From Methanoregula sp. (GTDB lineage Archaea; Halobacteriota; Methanomicrobia; Methanomicrobiales; Methanospirillaceae), in NCBI RefSeq assembly GCF_003170075.1, contig NZ_PMZU01000058.1, positions 1-52,498 of the forward strand: a stretch of DNA of 52,498 nt, read 5' to 3'. The notes under the pieces are model-generated. The model saw only the letters and a list, made by a program, of their open reading frames with translations. It did not search any database and was not told the origin of the DNA. Below are positions 2,750-51,896 of this stretch, in pieces. Both the position numbers and the translations under genes were made by a program. Each line of letters opens with the position of its first letter. Positions within the stretch are counted from its first letter, which is position 1.

Positions 2750-5392
2750 GTGAGTGTGATACACGAGCCGCCGGTAAAAAGGTACCTCTACTGGTGCGAC
2801 CAGTGTAACGTCCCGCTGATCGGCAGGACCTGCTCCTGCGGTGCAAACGGGCGGGAGATCGAACTCCTCCAGCCGTACGATGTACGCCCGGCGCTTTCTG
2901 CCGACATGGCACTTATCAAAAACCTCGTCCGCGAACGGTTCGGCAACGTCCCGATCCAGTCCGTTCTCCTTCTCAATAAGACCGGCGGGGTGGACCGGGC
3001 CGATCTCGTGATCGCCCACGGGCACCGGTTCGGCTGGCTCACCTTCGACCCCGTGACCCGAAAATTCTCGCTCGATATCTCCCCCGAGGCGCTGCCGTAT
3101 ATTCTCAAGCACGTGACCAAGGGAATCGTCGACCTCGAAACCGGCATCGATACCCCCGGCGGGCCCGGGCGGATGGGCGGCAAAAAGTTCCGGCTCAAAG
3201 AGCCCCAGCCCGATGGCACCGTGATTGTGAAATTCAGAAACCGGTTCGGCACCGGGGTGGTAAAGGAAGGGCAGATCCGGGTAAAGGAACTCATGCCGGT
3301 CGATCTCCGCACCGGGAAAAACCCGGACTGGGAACAGGTCGTGGAACAGAACCGGTACCATCTTAAAAACCTCGAACGGTCATCCGTCCGGATGATAAAA
3401 CAGCACATCCACGACCGGCCGAAGTGCAATGTCTCGTTCTCGGGCGGCAAGGACAGCACGGCGGTACTCACCCTCGCGAGGAAAGCCGGGGTCACGGAGG
3501 CGTTCTTCCTCGATACCGGTATCGAATTTCCCGAGACCATTGCGTTTGTGAAATCACAGGGCGTCCCGGTGATCGAGAAGGCCGGGGACTTCTGGCAGGC
3601 AGTAGAGAAGGCCGGGCCGCCCGGGAAGGACAACCGGTGGTGCTGCAAGCTCCTCAAACTGCGCCCGCTCAAACTCCACCTCGCAGAGATTGGAGCCTGC
3701 GTCACGGTGCAGGGCAACCGGTGGTATGAGTCGTGGAACCGGGCGGTGCTCGAAGAGACCAGCCAGAACCCGGCAAATCCGCTCCAGCTCAACATTTCCC
3801 CAATCCGGAACTGGCGGGCGCTTGAAGTCTTCCTCTACCTCTGGTGGCAGAAGGCTGCGATGAACCCGCTCTACGAGCAGGGGATCGAACGGATCGGGTG
3901 TTATGTGTGCCCATCCATGCTCGAAAGCGAGTATGAGGACCTCAGGGTCATGCACCCTGAGTATGCCCGTCGCTGGGATGCAGTTCTCGTGGAATACGCA
4001 AAGAAGAGGGGCCTGCCCGCTGCGTTCCACGAGTGGGGGCTCTGGCGCTGGAAGGCGCTGCCGCCCAAGATGCGGGAGCTCTGCCGGGACCGGGGCATCC
4101 CGGTACTGGATGATTATACCCTGCAGGCAGAACCGCCGGCAGAACGGGAAGAAACGGTTGAAATAACAAAAGAGAGAATCATGGAACCGGATATGGCAGC
4201 ACAGGAGACCGGGGGATACGCGGTGGAGGCGATCCGCAGGGATTTTCCCATCCTCGGCGACATTATTTATCTCGATAACGGAGCGACCAGTTTCTCTCCT
4301 GAACCCGTGATCGCGGCACAGGTCGAGTTCGAACACCGGTACCGGTCAAACGTGGGCCGGGGCGTGCACCGGCTCACCAGTATCGCCACCCAGCGGTACT
4401 GGCACGCCCACGAGAAGGTCGCGGACTTCATCGGTGGGAAAAACGGCGTCACCGTCTTTACGAAAAATACCACCGAATCGGTGAACATGGTCGCGCAGGG
4501 CATGGGCTGGAAGCCCGGCGACCGGGTTATCACAACCATCCTCGAACACCACTCGAACCTGCTCCCCTGGAGAAATCTCTCCAGAAAGGGAGTTGCCACC
4601 GATATTATTGGGATCACCCCGGATTACTCGCTCGACCTTGCCGCACTGGGACGGGCGATCACGGATACCACCCGGCTCGTGGCCGTCACGCAGGCTTCAA
4701 ACGTGCTTGGCGTTGTGACTCCGATAAAGGAGATTGCGAAGATCTGCCATGACCACGGAGTCCTCCTCCTTGTGGATGGGGCACAGGCCGTCCCGCACCT
4801 GCCGGTGGACGTGGAAAACCTCGACTGCGACTTCTACTGTTTTTCGGGCCACAAGATGCTCGGGCCGACGGGCACCGGGGTGCTCTGGATGAAGGAGCCC
4901 ACAATCGAACCGTCCATGCTCGGCGGCGGCATGGTCGATGCAGTAACGAGCGACGGCTGCACGCTGGCGCAGGGCTACCAGCGGTACGAGGCGGGGACGC
5001 CCAACATTGCGGGAGGCATCGGCCTTGGCGCTGCGGTGGACTACCTCCAGACGATCGGGATGGAAAAGATCCACACCTATGAGACCGATCTTACGAGCCG
5101 GCTCATCGCCGGCCTATCAGGAAACCAAAAAATCCATGTCTACGCCCCGCAGAATCCCGAGCACCGGATCGGGGTTGTCTCCTTTACGATCGAAGGCTTC
5201 CATCCCCACGAGGTAGCCCAGCAGCTCGATGAGATGGCGGATATCATGGTGCGGTCCGGCCACCACTGCTGCCAGCCGCTCGTTGAGAGTCTCGGGATTC
5301 CCGACGGGACCGTGCGGGCGAGCCTTGCGCTCTACAACACCCGGCAGGAGTGCGACATGCTGGTCGCAACCCTCGAAGAACTCACAAGGTGA
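2750..5392 (+). CDS. Fusion: APS-reductase-like PP-loop protein + cysteine desulfurase
   Basis: An 880-residue two-enzyme fusion, if GTG 2750 is the start (GTG 2756 is the alternative). N-terminus: a zinc ribbon (CDQC...CSC, residues 7-25) and a PUA-like region to about residue 200. Next comes a PAPS/APS reductase-type PP-loop domain with SGGKDST from residue 231, Cys298-Cys299 and Cys384-x-x-Cys387. This CC plus CxxC pattern binds [4Fe-4S] in assimilatory APS reductases. From about residue 490 there is a full class-V aminotransferase of the SufS type, with the PLP lysine in SGHK (Lys702) and the catalytic cysteine in GHHCCQPL (Cys840). The reading frame is uninterrupted. An internal ATG at 4181 could start the desulfurase separately. 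Likely role: self-supplied sulfur transfer to an unknown acceptor (inference). Confidence 0.85.
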   Translation: MSVIHEPPVKRYLYWCDQCNVPLIGRTCSCGANGREIELLQPYDVRPALSADMALIKNLVRERFGNVPIQSVLLLNKTGGVDRADLVIAHGHRFGWLTFDPVTRKFSLDISPEALPYILKHVTKGIVDLETGIDTPGGPGRMGGKKFRLKEPQPDGTVIVKFRNRFGTGVVKEGQIRVKELMPVDLRTGKNPDWEQVVEQNRYHLKNLERSSVRMIKQHIHDRPKCNVSFSGGKDSTAVLTLARKAGVTEAFFLDTGIEFPETIAFVKSQGVPVIEKAGDFWQAVEKAGPPGKDNRWCCKLLKLRPLKLHLAEIGACVTVQGNRWYESWNRAVLEETSQNPANPLQLNISPIRNWRALEVFLYLWWQKAAMNPLYEQGIERIGCYVCPSMLESEYEDLRVMHPEYARRWDAVLVEYAKKRGLPAAFHEWGLWRWKALPPKMRELCRDRGIPVLDDYTLQAEPPAEREETVEITKERIMEPDMAAQETGGYAVEAIRRDFPILGDIIYLDNGATSFSPEPVIAAQVEFEHRYRSNVGRGVHRLTSIATQRYWHAHEKVADFIGGKNGVTVFTKNTTESVNMVAQGMGWKPGDRVITTILEHHSNLLPWRNLSRKGVATDIIGITPDYSLDLAALGRAITDTTRLVAVTQASNVLGVVTPIKEIAKICHDHGVLLLVDGAQAVPHLPVDVENLDCDFYCFSGHKMLGPTGTGVLWMKEPTIEPSMLGGGMVDAVTSDGCTLAQGYQRYEAGTPNIAGGIGLGAAVDYLQTIGMEKIHTYETDLTSRLIAGLSGNQKIHVYAPQNPEHRIGVVSFTIEGFHPHEVAQQLDEMADIMVRSGHHCCQPLVESLGIPDGTVRASLALYNTRQECDMLVATLEELTR

Positions 5393-22960: not shown

Positions 22961-24091
22961 TTACGTCTTTTTGTCCATGCAGGCGTTCAGGACCTCCTCG
23001 ATAAAATGGAGCGTGCCGCCGGTTCCCGCAAGAGGGGGATGGGCGAGCCTGACCCGTCCGCGGAGCGGGGGAATAATCCCAACAAAGGTACGATCGCCGC
23101 TCACCGACCGTTCAAACGACGATCCTATCACAAGATCCGGTGAGACCTCCGCGATCTTCCGGGCAACCTGCTCAAGGCCAGTCAGTTTCTCAACCGGGTA
23201 CTGCCCGGCCGGCGCTGCGAGGGGATCGTTCCGCGTCCCGACGGCGAGGATCTCTGCGTCCAAATACTGTTTGAGCGTATCCGCGGCAAAGAGCGCATAT
23301 GCGGTGCCGGCAAAGACTGCAACACCGGGGGGATCATAGCGGCGGAGATACTTGTCGCAGGCATGGATCACCCGCTCCTCCTGCACGTCAAGTTCGGCGA
23401 GGACCGGGTCCGCATCCGCACCTTCATACGCTGTGGAAAGGTTCTCAAATGTTGCGCGGAGCGCCGGTATCCCAAGCGTCCCGCCAAGATACTTCCCCAC
23501 ACCTGAGGCAAAATCGTCATTTGTCCCCATCGTGAGCGGCGCTGCATGTCCCGCCATCTCGGACCAGTCCCGGCAGAATACCGTTCCTACGGGAATGCCG
23601 GCACAGTGCAGCAGCCGGGAGACCTCCTGCACGTTTCCCTCGTAAAACGGATCCGAGAGGGACACCCCGTCAATATTGACCCCCCATCGTTCCGGGTCTG
23701 TTGTTGGGGCAAGCACGGCAAGTGCCGCCCGGTACCCGGTCTCCAGTTCCCCGGCAAACCCGGGGCTGTCGACAAGGATAACATCAGTCCCGTCAAGCAT
23801 CGATTTTATATCCTCCCCAAGCACTGACGGGACACACGTCGTGATGACGGCGATCCGTCCTCCCTTGCCCGACAGGTCGCCAATCACCTCACGAAGCCGG
23901 TCCCCTGACCCGAAGACCACCTCGTTTTCCAGGATAAATGTCCCGTGCAGGGGAGCGTGGAGCAGGGTTGCAGGATAATAATAACACCCGCTCGAACCGT
24001 GGATGACGACCGATATACCCTCAAAACCGGCAAGACATGCCGCAGCCCCGGTCATTGCACAGGGCCAGAGCGGGGTCTCGCATTCAGGCAT
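22961..24091 (-). CDS. Nitrogenase-like component 1, NifK-like subunit
   Basis: A 376-residue NifD/K-superfamily protein and the last gene of a three-gene nitrogenase-like operon. Three cysteines sit where nitrogenase places its P-cluster ligands: CAMTGAA near residue 11, HGSSGCYYYP near residue 36 and TTCVPS near residue 86. The third Rossmann domain is intact (VAVFAGTAYALFAADTL near residue 260, AVGTRNDP). It is much shorter than NifK (about 520). ATG 24091 overlaps the NifD-like stop by eight bases and follows GGAGG. Function is unknown: it may reduce a tetrapyrrole or a sulfur or carbon compound. Confidence 0.8.
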   Translation of the reverse strand: MPECETPLWPCAMTGAAACLAGFEGISVVIHGSSGCYYYPATLLHAPLHGTFILENEVVFGSGDRLREVIGDLSGKGGRIAVITTCVPSVLGEDIKSMLDGTDVILVDSPGFAGELETGYRAALAVLAPTTDPERWGVNIDGVSLSDPFYEGNVQEVSRLLHCAGIPVGTVFCRDWSEMAGHAAPLTMGTNDDFASGVGKYLGGTLGIPALRATFENLSTAYEGADADPVLAELDVQEERVIHACDKYLRRYDPPGVAVFAGTAYALFAADTLKQYLDAEILAVGTRNDPLAAPAGQYPVEKLTGLEQVARKIAEVSPDLVIGSSFERSVSGDRTFVGIIPPLRGRVRLAHPPLAGTGGTLHFIEEVLNACMDKKT

Positions 24092-25124
24092 GAAGCGCCC
24101 TCCTCCACCGGTGAAGCAGCCGGCGCACACCAATGATCCCGACTGGCGGCGTCACGGGTACCGGCACCGGGCAGCCGGAGGATGTAACATCGAGCCGAAA
24201 CGCCTGTGCGATATCCTGTGCCACCCGGCTCCCTTCGGGATCTGGCGGGAGTGGGGTAAAGGAGATCCCCGCACCCGCAAGATCCGCAAAATCATCAAGT
24301 GTCTGCTGCCGGAGCGTATGTTCCTCTTCCACCGCATGCCGGCAGTCAATACCGCAGGTATCAGCCACTGATTCGAGGAACGCGACAGTACCCGAGATCC
24401 CGACCGGATAGGCAGGAATGTACGGTGTTCCGAAGCGCTCTTTCAAGGATTCCCCTACGGGTATGAGTGAAGGATCGCGGAGAATATTGAGCCGGGCAGC
24501 CCCGAGTGACGCGATATGGTCTGTTGCAAGGTCGTGCACAAACCGGATATTCACGGACAGGCCAAGCAGGGCGAGCAGCCGGGAGACCTCGGCGAAGTTC
24601 TCCTCGACCTCGTATTCGAGATTCTTCTCGCCGATGATATTCACGCCCCCGTTTCTATCAGCCGGTCCCGCCATCCCGGCAAGGGCGATAAGCGCGTTAT
24701 TGACGCCGGTCTGGAACGATCCGCCGAGGAAGCCGGCGGTCGGCACCACAATGACCGGCACCCCGGCCTTCGCGCCGCAGACCATCCCGACGTCATCGCC
24801 GATCGTATCCACAATGCATGTCGAGAGCACAAAGACCGCCCCGGGATCGCGTGCGATCACCGTATCAAGCGTCCGGTCGAGTGCCCCCTCGCCGCCAAAG
24901 ATTACATCGGTCTCCGAAAGCCCGGTCGAGACAAGCGGGGGGAGAGCGATCCGGTCATTGTCGAGGCTTGTCGCATGCAGGAGGGAAAAATTGTGGTGAG
25001 TACACCCTTGGGGTCCGTGCACGACCGTTATCGCGTCGCGGACATGGGTGGTCACCGAGAGCGCTCCCGTAAGGGTGCAGCCGGCAAACCTACATATATT
25101 CGATGGCAAGGGCCTCAAGGTCAT
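24084..25124 (-). CDS. Nitrogenase-like component 1, NifD-like subunit
   Basis: A 346-residue NifD-like protein. Cysteines at [10 protein letters not shown] (residue 16), [10 protein letters not shown] (near residue 41) and [12 protein letters not shown] (near residue 102) match the three P-cluster-type ligands. [16 protein letters not shown] near residue 170 is typical of the CfbD-like group IV proteins. ATG 25124 gives a 35-base overlap with the NifH-like gene. Its C-terminal domain is short and ends [19 protein letters not shown]. It resembles CfbD, the F430-synthesis reductase, but CfbD normally works without a separate NifK-like partner, which is present here. Confidence 0.8.
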
Positions 25125-25902
25125 CGATCTCGAGCGGGGTGGGAATGGTAAACCGGGTGTTCTCCATAATATGGGTGGCAAGATCGCGGTATATCTGAGC
25201 CTGTTTCGAGTCAGGCTCGTACTCGATCACGGTCTTGCGGTTCAGTTCGGCCAGCTGCACGACGCGATCGCGGGGAATGAACTGGACAAGATGACTGTTG
25301 ACCCGGCGGGCAAATTCGGCCACCAGTTCCTCTTCTTTTGGCTGGTTCTTTGCGTTGCAGATGACCCCGGCAAGCCGGCACCGGCTCTTCGGGCGGGCAC
25401 TTAAGCGTTCTATCGCCTTGCAGATGTTGTTTGCCGCGTACAGGGACATGAGTTCTCCTGAGGTCACGAGGTAGACTTCCTGCGCATACCCCTCCCGCAT
25501 CGGCATGGCAAACCCCCCGCAGACCACATCGCCCAGCACATCATAGACGATTACGTCACCTGTCAGTGTCCCGAACTTCTCCAGCAGCTGGAAGGTGGCA
25601 ATGATCCCCCGGCCGGCACAGCCAACGCCGGGCTCCGGCCCCCCGGCCTCCACGCAGCGCACCCCGTTAAAGCCGGTATAGACCACATCGGCGGGTGTCA
25701 CCCCTGACGCGCCCCGCTCGCGTACCTGATCCATCACGGTGGGGATCAACCGCCCCTGCATCAGCATACGCGTGCTGTCGCGCTTGGGATCGCACCCGAT
25801 CTGGAGGATATCGTGCCCTGCAAGCGAGAGCGCGGCGGAGAGGTTTGCCGAGGTTGTGGACTTCCCGATACCGCCTTTCCCATACAAGGCGATCTGTTTC
25901 AT
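25090..25902 (-). CDS. NifH-like reductase of the nitrogenase-like operon
   Basis: A 270-residue NifH-family ATPase that would feed electrons to the two component-1-like proteins. Walker A is GKGGIGKST near residue 8. The bridging [4Fe-4S] ligands are the cysteines of VGCAGRG near residue 96 and DVVCGGF near residue 131. The arginine in the GRG site is kept. The P-loop-following segment reads [12 protein letters not shown], unlike the GCDPKADSTRLL of true NifH, which argues against conventional nitrogenase. The start MKQIALYG at 25902 matches family N-termini; ATG 25908 adds two residues. Confidence 0.9.
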
Positions 25903-25977
25903 CACCATACTATGGGGCGGCAGTTTATATTAGATCTTCTGAAGTTAAGAAAAGTGTATTTGTGTTTGTATCTCTTT

Positions 25978-48107: not shown

Positions 48108-49016
48108 TTACAGCGCGAGCATGCGTTCGATGGCGCCGCGGGCACGGGAAGCGATATCTTCCGGCACCGTGATCCTTGGTTTGAGCGTGACCAGCGCGTC
48201 GCGGACTTTTACAAGATCAGTTTTTTTCATGTTCACGCAGACGGCTTTATCCGAGAGGGGATAACAGCGCTTGCCCGGGCATTCTTTTGCGAGCCGGTGC
48301 AGGATGCCGATCTCGGTGCCGATGATAAACTCGTTTTGGGGGTCAGATTTCACGTGGCTGATGATCCCCGAGGTACTCGCCACGTGATCCGCGAGATCGA
48401 TGACATCCGGCCGGCACTCGGGATGGACAAGTACGACCGCATCCGGGTGTGCCTGTTTTGCGAGGGCCACATCGGCCGGGGTATAGCGGTCGTGGACAAG
48501 ACAGAACCCTTCCCACGACAGGACTGTCTTTTTTGTAAAGCGTGCCGCGTACTGCCCGAGATTTTTGTCCGGTACAAAGATAACCGTATCCTCTTTCACC
48601 GAATTTACCACTTTTACCGCATTTGCCGAGGTGCAGCAGATGTCGCTCTCCGCCTTGACGTCTGCTGTCGTGTTGACGTAGCAGACGACCGCGGCCTCCG
48701 GATGGCGGGTGCGTGCGAACCTGAGCTCGTCTGCACTCACCATCCCGGCCATGGGACAGCAGGAATCCGGTGCCGGCAGCAGAACGGTTTTTTCCGGTGA
48801 GAGGATCGCGGCGGTCTCGGCCATAAAATCGACTCCGCAGAAGACGATAACGTCACCTTTCATCCCCACAGCAGCACGGGCGAGCTCCAGCGAATCGCCA
48901 ATGATATCCGCGATGTCCTGCACCTCGGGGCGCTGGTAGTTGTGCGCGAGGATGATTGCGTTCTTTTTCTCCTTCTGCCGCAGGATCTCTGCCTGCAGCA
49001 TGGTGATGTCCTGCAT
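48108..49016 (-). CDS. nadA: Quinolinate synthase
   Basis: A 302-residue [4Fe-4S] enzyme that condenses iminoaspartate with dihydroxyacetone phosphate in NAD synthesis. Seen are ILAHNYQRPEVQDIADIIGDSL near residue 22, FCGVDFMAETAAIL near residue 59 and DICCTSANA near residue 128. The other likely cluster cysteines are in DSCCPMAGM and PGKRCYPL. ATG 49016 gives typical length; 49058 adds 14 residues. NadB/NadC or the aspartate dehydrogenase must lie elsewhere. Confidence 0.95.
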   Translation of the reverse strand: MQDITMLQAEILRQKEKKNAIILAHNYQRPEVQDIADIIGDSLELARAAVGMKGDVIVFCGVDFMAETAAILSPEKTVLLPAPDSCCPMAGMVSADELRFARTRHPEAAVVCYVNTTADVKAESDICCTSANAVKVVNSVKEDTVIFVPDKNLGQYAARFTKKTVLSWEGFCLVHDRYTPADVALAKQAHPDAVVLVHPECRPDVIDLADHVASTSGIISHVKSDPQNEFIIGTEIGILHRLAKECPGKRCYPLSDKAVCVNMKKTDLVKVRDALVTLKPRITVPEDIASRARGAIERMLAL

Positions 49017-49152
49017 CAGGTAACACGCTCTCCCGGTTGTATCGTAGTAGTATGTCATGGTGCATCAAATACCCGTTGGCAGATAGTCATGCGGAAGATG
49101 GCCTGTACCGGGATGTTTATGCCCCCGGCTTTCCTATTATCTCATCACGACA

Positions 49153-49347
49153 ATGAAAGTTATTCTGCCGGATCAGGGCATCCGGGTGATGGAGCACTGT
49201 CCCGGGACAGTCGGGGCGCTCCTGCACGAGATCGGGGCGAATCCCCTCGAGGTGATTGTGTCCCGGAACGGGAAACTCGTTCCCGAGGAGGCTACAATCG
49301 GCAGGGACGACGAGATCCGGATCATCCGTATCGCGCACGGGGGATAA
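49153..49347 (+). CDS. ThiS/MoaD-like sulfur carrier protein
   Basis: A 64-residue ubiquitin-fold protein ending in Gly-Gly, the tail used as thiocarboxylate donor. MKVILPDQGIRV, GTVGALLHEIGANPLEVIVSRNGK and DEIRIIRIAHGG match the ThiS/MoaD/TtuB pattern. It lies four bases before the Ncs6-like thiolase, so it is probably the sulfur carrier of that enzyme, analogous to TtuB of Thermus or SAMP2 of Haloferax. The activating E1-like protein is not in the window. Confidence 0.88.
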   Translation: MKVILPDQGIRVMEHCPGTVGALLHEIGANPLEVIVSRNGKLVPEEATIGRDDEIRIIRIAHGG

Positions 49348-49351
49348 GCCG

Positions 49352-50287
49352 GTGGAACCACATGCCGTACCCGGTGAGTCCCCGGTCTGCGCCTGCTGTG
49401 CAGAACCGGCAGTAGTGTACCAGCCGGTCATCCGGCGCTATCTCTGCGGCACGCACCTTGTCCGGGATGTGGAAGAGCGCGTCCGTACGACCATACTGGA
49501 GACTGGGCAGATCCATGCGGGCGACCGGGTCGCAGTGGGCCTGAGCGGGGGAAAAGACAGCACTGCACTCCTCGTAATTCTCTCGCGGCTCCTGCCAACA
49601 TTGCCGGGTGCCAGTTTCGTTGCGATCACCGTGGACGAGGGCATTGCCGGTTACCGGGCCGACACCATGCGGGCAGCGAAGAGCCTGACACAACGGCTTG
49701 GGGTTGACCACCGTATTGTCACGTTTCGCGCACTTATCGGAGACGACCTCGATACCCTGCTCATCGGGCGCGAGACGCATGCCTGTACCATCTGCGGCAT
49801 CCTGCGCAAAAAAGCCCTCGCGGATGCAGCGCGGGCAGCTGGTGCAACTTCGATCGCCACCGGCCACAACCTCGATGACGAGGCACAGTCGGTGCTGATG
49901 AATGCGTTCAGGGGCGATCTGCCCCGGCTTGTCCGCACGACGGGTACTGGTACATCGGAAACATTTCTCCCGAGGATCAAGCCACTTATGGCAATCCCGG
50001 AAAAGGAGATCGCGTCCTATCTCTTCGTGCAGGACCTCTTTTCGGTGTTGCCAGAGTGCCCGTACACGAAGTATGCCCTGCGGGCCGAAGTCCGCGCCCT
50101 GCTTTCAGACTATGAGTGCCACCATCCCGGGACTATGCAGCACCTTATCGAAAGCAAAAAAACGATCGAACAATATTGTGCAGGGACGCCGGTCATGGAA
50201 CCCCTGCACCGCTGCCGGGAGTGCGGCGACCCCTGCTCCGGGGATCTCTGCCAGGTCTGCCGGCTCCGGCACTCATTGGGGAAGTGA
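49352..50287 (+). CDS. Ncs6/TtuA-type tRNA 2-thiolation enzyme
   Basis: A 311-residue PP-loop enzyme of the TtuA/Ncs6 (CTU1) family for 2-thiolation of tRNA uridines. N-terminal zinc site CACCAEP...CGTHL (residues 13-33), PP-loop SGGKDST near residue 67, a CxxC in TCTICGILRKK near residue 150, and a C-terminal zinc ribbon CRECGDPCSGDLCQVC near residue 290. The GHNLDDEAQ loop is typical. GTG 49352 starts four bases after the sulfur carrier gene. The tail overlaps fdhD by 15 bases on the other strand. Confidence 0.93.
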   Translation: MEPHAVPGESPVCACCAEPAVVYQPVIRRYLCGTHLVRDVEERVRTTILETGQIHAGDRVAVGLSGGKDSTALLVILSRLLPTLPGASFVAITVDEGIAGYRADTMRAAKSLTQRLGVDHRIVTFRALIGDDLDTLLIGRETHACTICGILRKKALADAARAAGATSIATGHNLDDEAQSVLMNAFRGDLPRLVRTTGTGTSETFLPRIKPLMAIPEKEIASYLFVQDLFSVLPECPYTKYALRAEVRALLSDYECHHPGTMQHLIESKKTIEQYCAGTPVMEPLHRCRECGDPCSGDLCQVCRLRHSLGK

Positions 50288-51052
50288 GGGGGCGCCCTGC
50301 AGCCTTTCGGGATGGGAATAGACATTCATTTTTGTGCTTCGGACAAAGCCGATGACACACACCCCGTTCTGTTCCGCGATGGTGACGGCAAGCGTCGTGG
50401 TCGCGCCGCGTGAGACGACCACCGGGATGTTTGCAATCAGGGACTTGCGCACCATCTCCGATGAGATCCGGCCCGAACAGATAGCAAACGTCTGCGAAAA
50501 ATCGATCCTGTTCCGGAGCCCGTAACCGATCACCCGGTCGAGCGCGTTGTGCCTCCCGATATCCTCGGAACGGGTGATGATACCCTTCGCCGACGCGAGA
50601 CCGACGACGTGGATGCCGCCGGTCATTTTATGCAAATCTGATTCGAGCACATCTCTTACCATTGTCCGGATCAGTTCGGGGGAAAGGGAAAGGTCCGAAG
50701 TAATCTTTGGCAGTTTTTCGGTATCGATATAGGATGTGGCGCCCCCGCACCCGGAGAGGATAGTCTTTTTGGGGCCAAGCACCTTGAAGAGGTTCTTTGT
50801 GATGACGCTGATCCGGTTCTTTTCAATCCTGATGGATTCGATCTCATCGGCGCCCTTGATGATCTGTTCGGTAAACAGGTAACCGGTGACAAAATCCTCC
50901 AGATCCGTTGGGCTCATCATCGCGGTCATCGCGTGCCTGCCGTTCACGAACAGGGCCTCGGGGACCTCATCGATCACCTCGTGGGTTCCGGCTTTTGCCG
51001 ATTCGCCATCGATTTTTATGCAGGGCAGGTTCTTGAACATCGGTATGGTCAT
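50273..51052 (-). CDS. fdhD: FdhD-like sulfurtransferase for molybdenum/tungsten enzyme maturation
   Basis: A 259-residue homologue of FdhD, which transfers sulfur to the metal cofactor of formate dehydrogenases. Signatures are VTGYLFTEQII near residue 54, the loop ILSGCGGATS near residue 98 where the catalytic cysteine lies, RSEDIGRHNALDRVIGYGL near residue 162, and CSGRISSEMV. ATG 51052 is supported by GGTGACACAG. It sits between the tRNA thiolase and larE, all sulfur-transfer genes. Formate dehydrogenase is not in the window. Confidence 0.92.
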   Translation of the reverse strand: MTIPMFKNLPCIKIDGESAKAGTHEVIDEVPEALFVNGRHAMTAMMSPTDLEDFVTGYLFTEQIIKGADEIESIRIEKNRISVITKNLFKVLGPKKTILSGCGGATSYIDTEKLPKITSDLSLSPELIRTMVRDVLESDLHKMTGGIHVVGLASAKGIITRSEDIGRHNALDRVIGYGLRNRIDFSQTFAICSGRISSEMVRKSLIANIPVVVSRGATTTLAVTIAEQNGVCVIGFVRSTKMNVYSHPERLQGAPSLPQ

Positions 51053-51077
51053 CTGTGTCACCACGAGTGGTTGTCGA

Positions 51078-51896
51078 TCAGGTTTTCCCGCCGGCAGGCG
51101 CGAGCACTTCATCCATGCTCCCGCTGCGGTATCCCTCGAGGTCGAGTGTCACGTAGGAGAACCCGAGCGCGGAGAGAGTGCCTGCCACCGCAGCATGCAT
51201 ATCCAGTAATGCGTGCATCTCCTCTTTAGGCACTTCGATGCGGGCAATTGTCCCGTGCACCCTCACCCGTACCTGCCGGAACCCTTTTTTATGCAGGAAC
51301 GCTTCGGCCTCTTCGACCATGTGGAGTTTTTCTCCTGTTATCACTTCCCCGTAGGGAATCCTGGATGAGAGGCAGGCTGCCGAGGGTTTGTCCCAGAAGT
51401 CAAAGCCTCCGGCACGGGCGCATTCCCGGATATTGTTTTTGGTCATGCCGGCGTCAAGAAACGGGTGGACGATCCCCTCTTCGGTGCTCGCAGCAAGGCC
51501 CGGCCGGTGCTCCCCGGTGTCCGAAACGTTGATGCCGTCGGCGACACAGGCAAGTCCCAGTTCCTGTGCCCGCCGTTTCAATACCCCCGCCGAGGTCTTC
51601 TTGCACCAGTAGCAGCGCTCGGCGGGGTTTTTCGTGAACCGTTCGTCGTCCATCAACGTTAGCTGGAGAATCTCAAGATTGAGGTTATAATCACGTGCGA
51701 TACGCTGCGCCTCGTCGATTGCTTCACGGGGGACAACCGGACTGTCAAGAAGGACGCACCGGCTTTTGTCCCCGAATGCCTCCCGTGCAAGTACCGCAAG
51801 CAGGCTGCTGTCCACGCCGCCGGAGAAAGCGACAAGCATGGACCCCCTCTCTGTAATTTTTCCGAGGAGATGTTTGCGACAGGCAGTAGTGTCCAT
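51078..51896 (-). CDS. larE: LarE-like ATP-dependent sulfur transferase
   Basis: A 272-residue PP-loop enzyme of the LarE family. The loop is FSGGVDSS at residues 24-31. Cys175 in PSAACLSSRIPYG is the position of the sacrificial Cys176 in Lactiplantibacillus LarE. An additional CxxC (Cys95 and Cys98 in NPAERCYWCKK) makes three cysteines, the set used by the Fe-S-cluster type of LarE. It may thus transfer sulfur catalytically through a [4Fe-4S] cluster. No larA/larB/larC genes are near, so the substrate is unknown. It lies in the same direction as fdhD and 25 bases before it. Confidence 0.92.
   Translation of the reverse strand: MDTTACRKHLLGKITERGSMLVAFSGGVDSSLLAVLAREAFGDKSRCVLLDSPVVPREAIDEAQRIARDYNLNLEILQLTLMDDERFTKNPAERCYWCKKTSAGVLKRRAQELGLACVADGINVSDTGEHRPGLAASTEEGIVHPFLDAGMTKNNIRECARAGGFDFWDKPSAACLSSRIPYGEVITGEKLHMVEEAEAFLHKKGFRQVRVRVHGTIARIEVPKEEMHALLDMHAAVAGTLSALGFSYVTLDLEGYRSGSMDEVLAPAGGKT

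Follow-up and report, generated by a model that had tools for sequence, protein, structure and literature searches.

A conserved fusion of a PP-loop protein and a cysteine desulfurase in Methanomicrobiales, linked to fdhD, is a candidate sulfur-transfer enzyme

The window, by which we mean the whole 52,498-nucleotide stretch of Methanoregula sp. DNA analysed here, encodes in one open frame of 880 codons (2750-5392, forward strand, GTG start, TGA stop) a protein whose APS-reductase-like PP-loop half is followed by a SufS-like cysteine desulfurase half. With confidence a little short of even, we read it as a two-part sulfur-transfer enzyme rather than an APS/PAPS reductase: the C-terminal half would feed sulfur to FdhD and also to the N-terminal half, which would act as an Fe-S thiolase, probably on RNA.

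The GTG at 2756 is a possible alternative start, and alignment shows that the relatives begin at the place of the start at 2750. Residue conservation was scored in 46 distinct fused proteins, and motif counts refer to 52 family members. The protein begins with a zinc ribbon (Cys16, Cys19, Cys28 and Cys30; 2795-2839), whose cysteines are invariant or nearly so in both sets, followed by a TGT_C2-like and divergent PUA-like region (residues 36-185; 2855-3304) with a confidently predicted fold. The PAPS-reductase-type PP-loop domain (residues 226-389; 3425-3916; Pfam PF01507, 118.6 bits) carries the PP-loop motif SGGKDS (residues 231-236; 3440-3457) and two cysteine pairs, Cys298-Cys299 (3641-3646) and C384-x2-C387 (3899-3910), which align with the corresponding cysteines of the APS reductase of PDB entry 2goy and are the presumed [4Fe-4S] ligands. 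All three motifs occur in 52/52 sequences, and their residues are likewise invariant or nearly so in the fused proteins. Cys445 (4082-4084), the only cysteine in the tail of the PP-loop half, is conserved in the fusion clade and is mostly replaced by Ala, Val, Leu or Met in the unfused basal relatives, so that it is not general in the family. A linker (4097-4225), variable in the alignment and disordered in the model (pLDDT <50 at residues 464-488), leads to the desulfurase domain (residues 506-871; 4265-5362), in which the PLP lysine Lys702 in SGHK (4853-4855) and the catalytic-loop cysteine Cys840 in RSGHHC (5267-5269) are invariant. All of these features lie on the forward strand. Thus the motifs named in an earlier note on this DNA, from the zinc ribbon to the catalytic cysteine, are all present, and the open frame, the Pfam domains and the relatives show that the fusion it described, of an APS-reductase-like PP-loop protein of [4Fe-4S] type with a desulfurase, is real and conserved.

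The fusion architecture is not new. In 2018, putative methanogen APS/PAPS reductases were reported to have a C-terminal 'cysteine desulfurylase' domain (PMC6286981, Fig. 3), and in 2024 a CysH-SufS fusion, cluster 536, was described as exclusive to Methanomicrobiales (PMC11237513). These reports concern the same protein family, with the same architecture and in the same order. In their relevant passages the function stops at the CysH or APS/PAPS reductase label; the link to fdhD and the near-absence of sulfate activation throughout the order are added here.

A full-length match to the fusion is found in 130 of 232 Methanomicrobiales genomes, belonging to all six families and 25 genera, and nearly all of these matches lie in one open frame; through its named loci, the family can be assigned to Methanoregula and Methanoculleus. 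This breadth rules out a frameshift or assembly artefact. Nor are the halves separate in all close relatives, which together with a frameshift here had been named as the observation that would speak against the fusion. The halves are separate yet adjacent in genome G155, separate and distant in G085, G088 and G207, and only the PP-loop half is found in G106, G109, G112 and G120. In the tree of the N-terminal half, a single clade (100/98) holds all 27 fused rows and five unfused ones, with the remaining unfused rows outside it; the tree of the desulfurase half was computed in quick mode only and is used lightly. This pattern fits, and does not prove, a single fusion event with splitting or loss in a few later lineages.

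The C-terminal half is best read as a predicted cysteine desulfurase of fold type I. Its match to Aminotran_5 (408.5 bits) and the invariance of Lys702 and Cys840 agree with this assignment, while its score with the SufS model TIGR01979 (423.6 bits) remains below the NCBIfam cut-off of 475.1, hence the designation SufS-like only. It resembles SufS in its full-length domain, PLP lysine and catalytic-loop cysteine, and differs from it in this lower score, in being fused and in its link to fdhD; sufBC were not seen among the recurring neighbours of the fusion. The genome also contains a separate NifS-NifU operon, which is its own route for general Fe-S assembly. This operon, together with a published survey in which 30 of 32 Methanomicrobiales genomes had SufS (PMC8351635), speaks against the premise of the earlier note that methanogens often lack cysteine desulfurases.

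Clustering of the neighbours of 20 fused loci revealed one recurring gene, which is fdhD. Among the 130 genomes with the full-length fusion, fdhD lies within 1.5 kb of it in 62, which represent 19 of the 25 genera and all six families. The gene is downstream and convergent in 40 cases, downstream on the same strand in 13, upstream on the same strand in five and divergent in four, a variety implying that the two genes stayed, or again became, neighbours in the course of rearrangements. In G085, G088, G126 and G128, fdhD follows stand-alone sufS orthologues with 76-79 bp between the matches, and several fusions are followed by fdhD at a spacing of 77-83 bp. Since fdhD follows sufS whether fused or not, the link belongs to the desulfurase half. 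The FdhD protein of E. coli receives its sulfur from the desulfurase IscS (PMC6239281, PMC10609526), while the donor elsewhere differs between organisms or is unknown according to a 2018 comparison (PMC6239281) and a 2023 review (PMC10609526). A search of open-access literature revealed no paper linking fdhD with the Methanomicrobiales desulfurase, and fdhD does not figure in the relevant passages of PMC6286981 and PMC11237513. The linkage is the new and testable part of the proposal, from which a physical hand-over of sulfur to FdhD is suggested by gene order. With this tie to fdhD in 19 genera, the desulfurase is a direct and testable candidate for the sulfur donor of the archaeal formate dehydrogenase cofactor.

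The adjacency is missing from all 28 Methanoregula genomes, as well as from genera g8 and g25. In the window, fdhD (50273-51112, reverse strand; TIGR00129, 193.1 bits, cut-off 140.9), whose product is the proposed recipient of sulfur from the desulfurase half, is located 45 kb from the fusion in a cluster with nadA, an NcsA-like PP-loop gene and larE (48108-51896). The stand-alone sufS of G085 has fdhD, nadA, an NcsA-like gene and a CysE-like gene around it; compared with this, the cluster of the window resembles a sulfur-trafficking neighbourhood from which the desulfurase is missing. In genus g25 (family f3), a tandem double match to FdhD is present in one frame of about 490-540 codons (G020, G022-G025, G027-G030, G040, G041, G043 and G044); it appears to be a duplicated, fused FdhD.

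The N-terminal half is probably an ATP-dependent Fe-S sulfurtransferase resembling DndC, SspD and TtuA. Its AlphaFold2 model has a pLDDT of 91.5, and the structural matches include, besides the APS/PAPS reductases that are nearest by score, CysD, FAD synthases and TtuA; a search of viral structures returned only generic PAPS-reductase-like proteins. At the sequence level it matches BrxP (120 bits), SspD (41 bits) and DndC (25 bits), and the desulfurase half matches SspA and DndA (176-178 bits). The P-loop is ATP-pyrophosphatase-like, judging from the motif: all 52 members carry SGGKDS, the aligned APS reductase 2goy has SGAED, and the fusion does not have a P-loop of the APS-binding type. The combination of SGGKDS with the cluster cysteines, also found in 52/52 members, is that expected of TtuA/TtcA-like enzymes.

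The zinc ribbon and the PUA-like region suggest RNA, probably tRNA, as the substrate. The PUA domain announced in the earlier note holds in a weakened form, as PUA-like and divergent: Pfam does not recognise it in the fused protein, while the region aligns with the Pfam PUA domain (PF01472) of two other proteins, a paralogue (L119, 59.3 bits) and a relative from Thorarchaeota (L051, 70.3 bits); in L051 a weak TGT_C2 match precedes the PUA domain. In the alignment, the family of the window protein is about ten residues shorter at this position than L119 and L051. A profile search of the N-terminal 190 residues against PDB sequences gave only chance thioredoxin matches, so the proposed RNA binding rests on homology to the relatives with a Pfam PUA domain, and a literature search on PUA domains combined with PP-loop thiolation found nothing relevant. 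An RNA sulfurtransferase is the most economical reading of the N-terminal half, which probably acts on RNA. The genome encodes other thiolation genes, namely ThiI twice and one NcsA-like protein. L119 (G000:C48), the paralogue of the N-terminal half in the same genome, has a clear PUA domain and is closer to the PRK13795 models (522 bits); paralogues of this type are present in nearly all genomes examined.

Over the zinc ribbon, PUA region and PP-loop, the N-terminal half is homologous to the archaeal PP-loop families PRK13795 (NF010366, 389.7 bits) and PRK08557 (NF006327, 223.3 bits), although its scores are under their cut-offs of 745 and 366, respectively, and the NF010366 model runs past the matched part to where the fused protein has its desulfurase. 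Pairing of a desulfurase with a PAPS-reductase-like PP-loop enzyme is shared with the DndA-DndC, SspA-SspD and type-4 BREX BrxP systems. However, in those systems DNA is modified and the parts are separate, whereas here a single chain includes a PUA-like region, and neither dndB/D/E or sspB/C partners nor defence genes were recognised among the clustered neighbours of the 20 fused loci. The tRNA thiolases TtuA, TtcA and NcsA share the PP-loop and the presumed [4Fe-4S] cluster but belong to a different subfamily and lack a fused desulfurase, and an NcsA-like gene and ThiI are encoded separately in the genome. The eukaryotic Moco sulfurase (PMC10609526) also contains a fused desulfurase, and in the present case gene order links the desulfurase to Mo/W-cofactor sulfuration. 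The partner in Moco sulfurase is a Moco-binding domain, while here it is a PP-loop enzyme and FdhD is separate.

The data show the architecture, the residue conservation, the distribution with its one fusion clade, the gene order at fdhD and the scarcity of sulfate activation in the order; we infer the catalytic steps, the cluster, the RNA target and the hand-over to FdhD as follows. The PLP-dependent C-terminal half would convert cysteine to alanine, leaving a persulfide on Cys840, from which sulfur would pass to FdhD and so sulfurate the Mo/W cofactor of formate dehydrogenase. Persulfide sulfur would also cross the flexible linker to the N-terminal half, where ATP bound at SGGKDS would activate the substrate by adenylation and a [4Fe-4S] cluster held by Cys298, Cys299, Cys384 and Cys387 would insert sulfur, as in TtuA and DndC/SspD. 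The substrate would be RNA, probably tRNA. Cys445, next to the linker, is a possible persulfide relay; it marks one clade and may be a single inherited change. The bolder proposal, that one polypeptide both feeds FdhD and performs ATP- and Fe-S-dependent RNA thiolation through one cysteine-sulfur relay, in which Cys445, found mainly in the fusion lineage, would be a relay residue, is unlikely. If true, a single cysteine-sulfur relay in Methanomicrobiales would join formate energy metabolism to RNA modification. The fused protein also offers a natural single-chain model for the supply of sulfur by a desulfurase to a PP-loop sulfurtransferase.

The two-part sulfur-transfer enzyme is favoured by the pairing with fdhD that survived repeated rearrangement, by the use of IscS by E. 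coli FdhD and by the availability of NifS-NifU for housekeeping Fe-S needs. It is weakened by APS/PAPS reductases being the nearest folds, by the activity reported from Methanocaldococcus jannaschii (see below) and by the missing fdhD adjacency in Methanoregula, g8 and g25, as well as by the unrecognised PUA domain, the empty PDB search with the N-terminus and the model of the full-length protein (pTM 0.56), which has no confident contact between the halves. The suggestion of the earlier note that the protein is a one-polypeptide thiolation machine is at best half the story, since the gene conserved beside the fusion throughout the order is fdhD.

In a rival reading, rather unlikely but the likeliest of the alternatives, the desulfurase works chiefly for FdhD and the overall supply of sulfur, and the PP-loop half modifies RNA on its own as a housekeeping enzyme; joining the two would only secure their co-expression or stoichiometry. 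It agrees with the linkage of fdhD to sufS, fused or not, with the existence of genomes that have only the PP-loop half, and with a long variable linker without a predicted interface. Moreover, unfused PP-loop orthologues precede grpE-dnaK-dnaJ and a TrmG10-like gene, as identified by reading their sequences, with no desulfurase nearby. However, mere co-expression does not readily account for the retention of the fusion in 25 genera and the rarity of splits within its clade, or for the conservation of Cys445 near the linker in the fusion clade and not in the basal unfused relatives; similar PP-loop/Fe-S enzymes are, in addition, paired with desulfurases (DndA/DndC, SspA/SspD).

According to the published reading, the N-terminal half would be an assimilatory APS/PAPS reductase (CysH) making sulfite, and the desulfurase an extra sulfur-assimilation activity. 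The best PDB sequence matches of this half are indeed the APS reductase 2goy and PAPS/APS reductases, as are its best folds, and both the PAPS_reduct domain and the conserved CC...CxxC pattern of APS reductases are present. Homologues from M. jannaschii, MJ0973 and another, were reported to reduce APS or PAPS, MJ0973 at a low rate (PMC3448663, PMC6286981). However, the sulfate activation that such an enzyme needs is missing. ATP sulfurylase (PF01747, Sat) is found in 1 of the 232 Methanomicrobiales genomes. CysD was not found in the genome analysed here, since its PF01507 proteins are only the fusion, the paralogue and a third that overlaps a LarE gene, and a profile search for APS kinase gave marginal partial matches with no full one. 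The PP-loop has SGGKDS in place of the APS-binding variant, and no ECG motif is found in the fused protein, the 2goy alignment ending before the ECG(L/I)H-type tail; the lone tail cysteine, Cys445, is not conserved in the unfused relatives. The passage of PMC6286981 on these enzymes itself calls the source of APS/PAPS in these genomes unclear. Taken together, these data make the published reading improbable and the published label doubtful; the fusion is probably not an APS/PAPS reductase of sulfate assimilation, and sulfur transfer rather than sulfate reduction, as first proposed from the DNA, is supported. Caution is thus needed in deducing sulfate assimilation in these genomes from a 'PAPS reductase' label. 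The single ATP sulfurylase is located at G167:C1:571756-572382, and the fusion is present in G167 too, as a single frame of 933 codons.

A main role of the desulfurase half in building or repairing the [4Fe-4S] cluster of its fused partner, for which the assembly of the DndC cluster by DndA, reported in the title of You et al. 2007 (cited in PMC12839542), is a precedent, is less probable still: unfused orthologues with the same four cysteines manage without a desulfurase half, NifS-NifU is present in this genome, and the link to fdhD would be left unexplained.

Very improbable is the production of a free desulfurase alongside the fusion from an internal ATG (4181-4183, forward strand), as proposed in the earlier note from the AAGAGAG at 4170-4176, although an ATG with a purine-rich upstream stretch exists here and in several relatives. 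The null model left the amino acids of the linker unchanged and resampled its synonymous codons from those used in the gene. Pairing of this start with the 16S 3' end, for which the common archaeal core was taken and not this genome's own sequence, is -3.3 kcal/mol, weaker than the shuffle mean of -5.4 (p=1.0). Among 33 relatives, only 1 has p<=0.05, and in about a quarter of the fused genes the linker contains no ATG. This start is rejected as unsupported and not conserved. Linker ATGs do score better than other internal ATGs, which is due to the Lys/Glu/Arg-rich composition of the linker.

Elsewhere in the window, a nitrogenase-like triad is encoded on the reverse strand (22961-25908). It comprises a NifH/CfbC-like protein (419 bits with the CfbC model, cut-off 402) and, next in order, two short NifD/NifE/NifK-like proteins of 365 and 390 amino acids for which no model scores above its cut-off. 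The triad may represent a CfbCD-related or an uncharacterised nitrogenase-like system.
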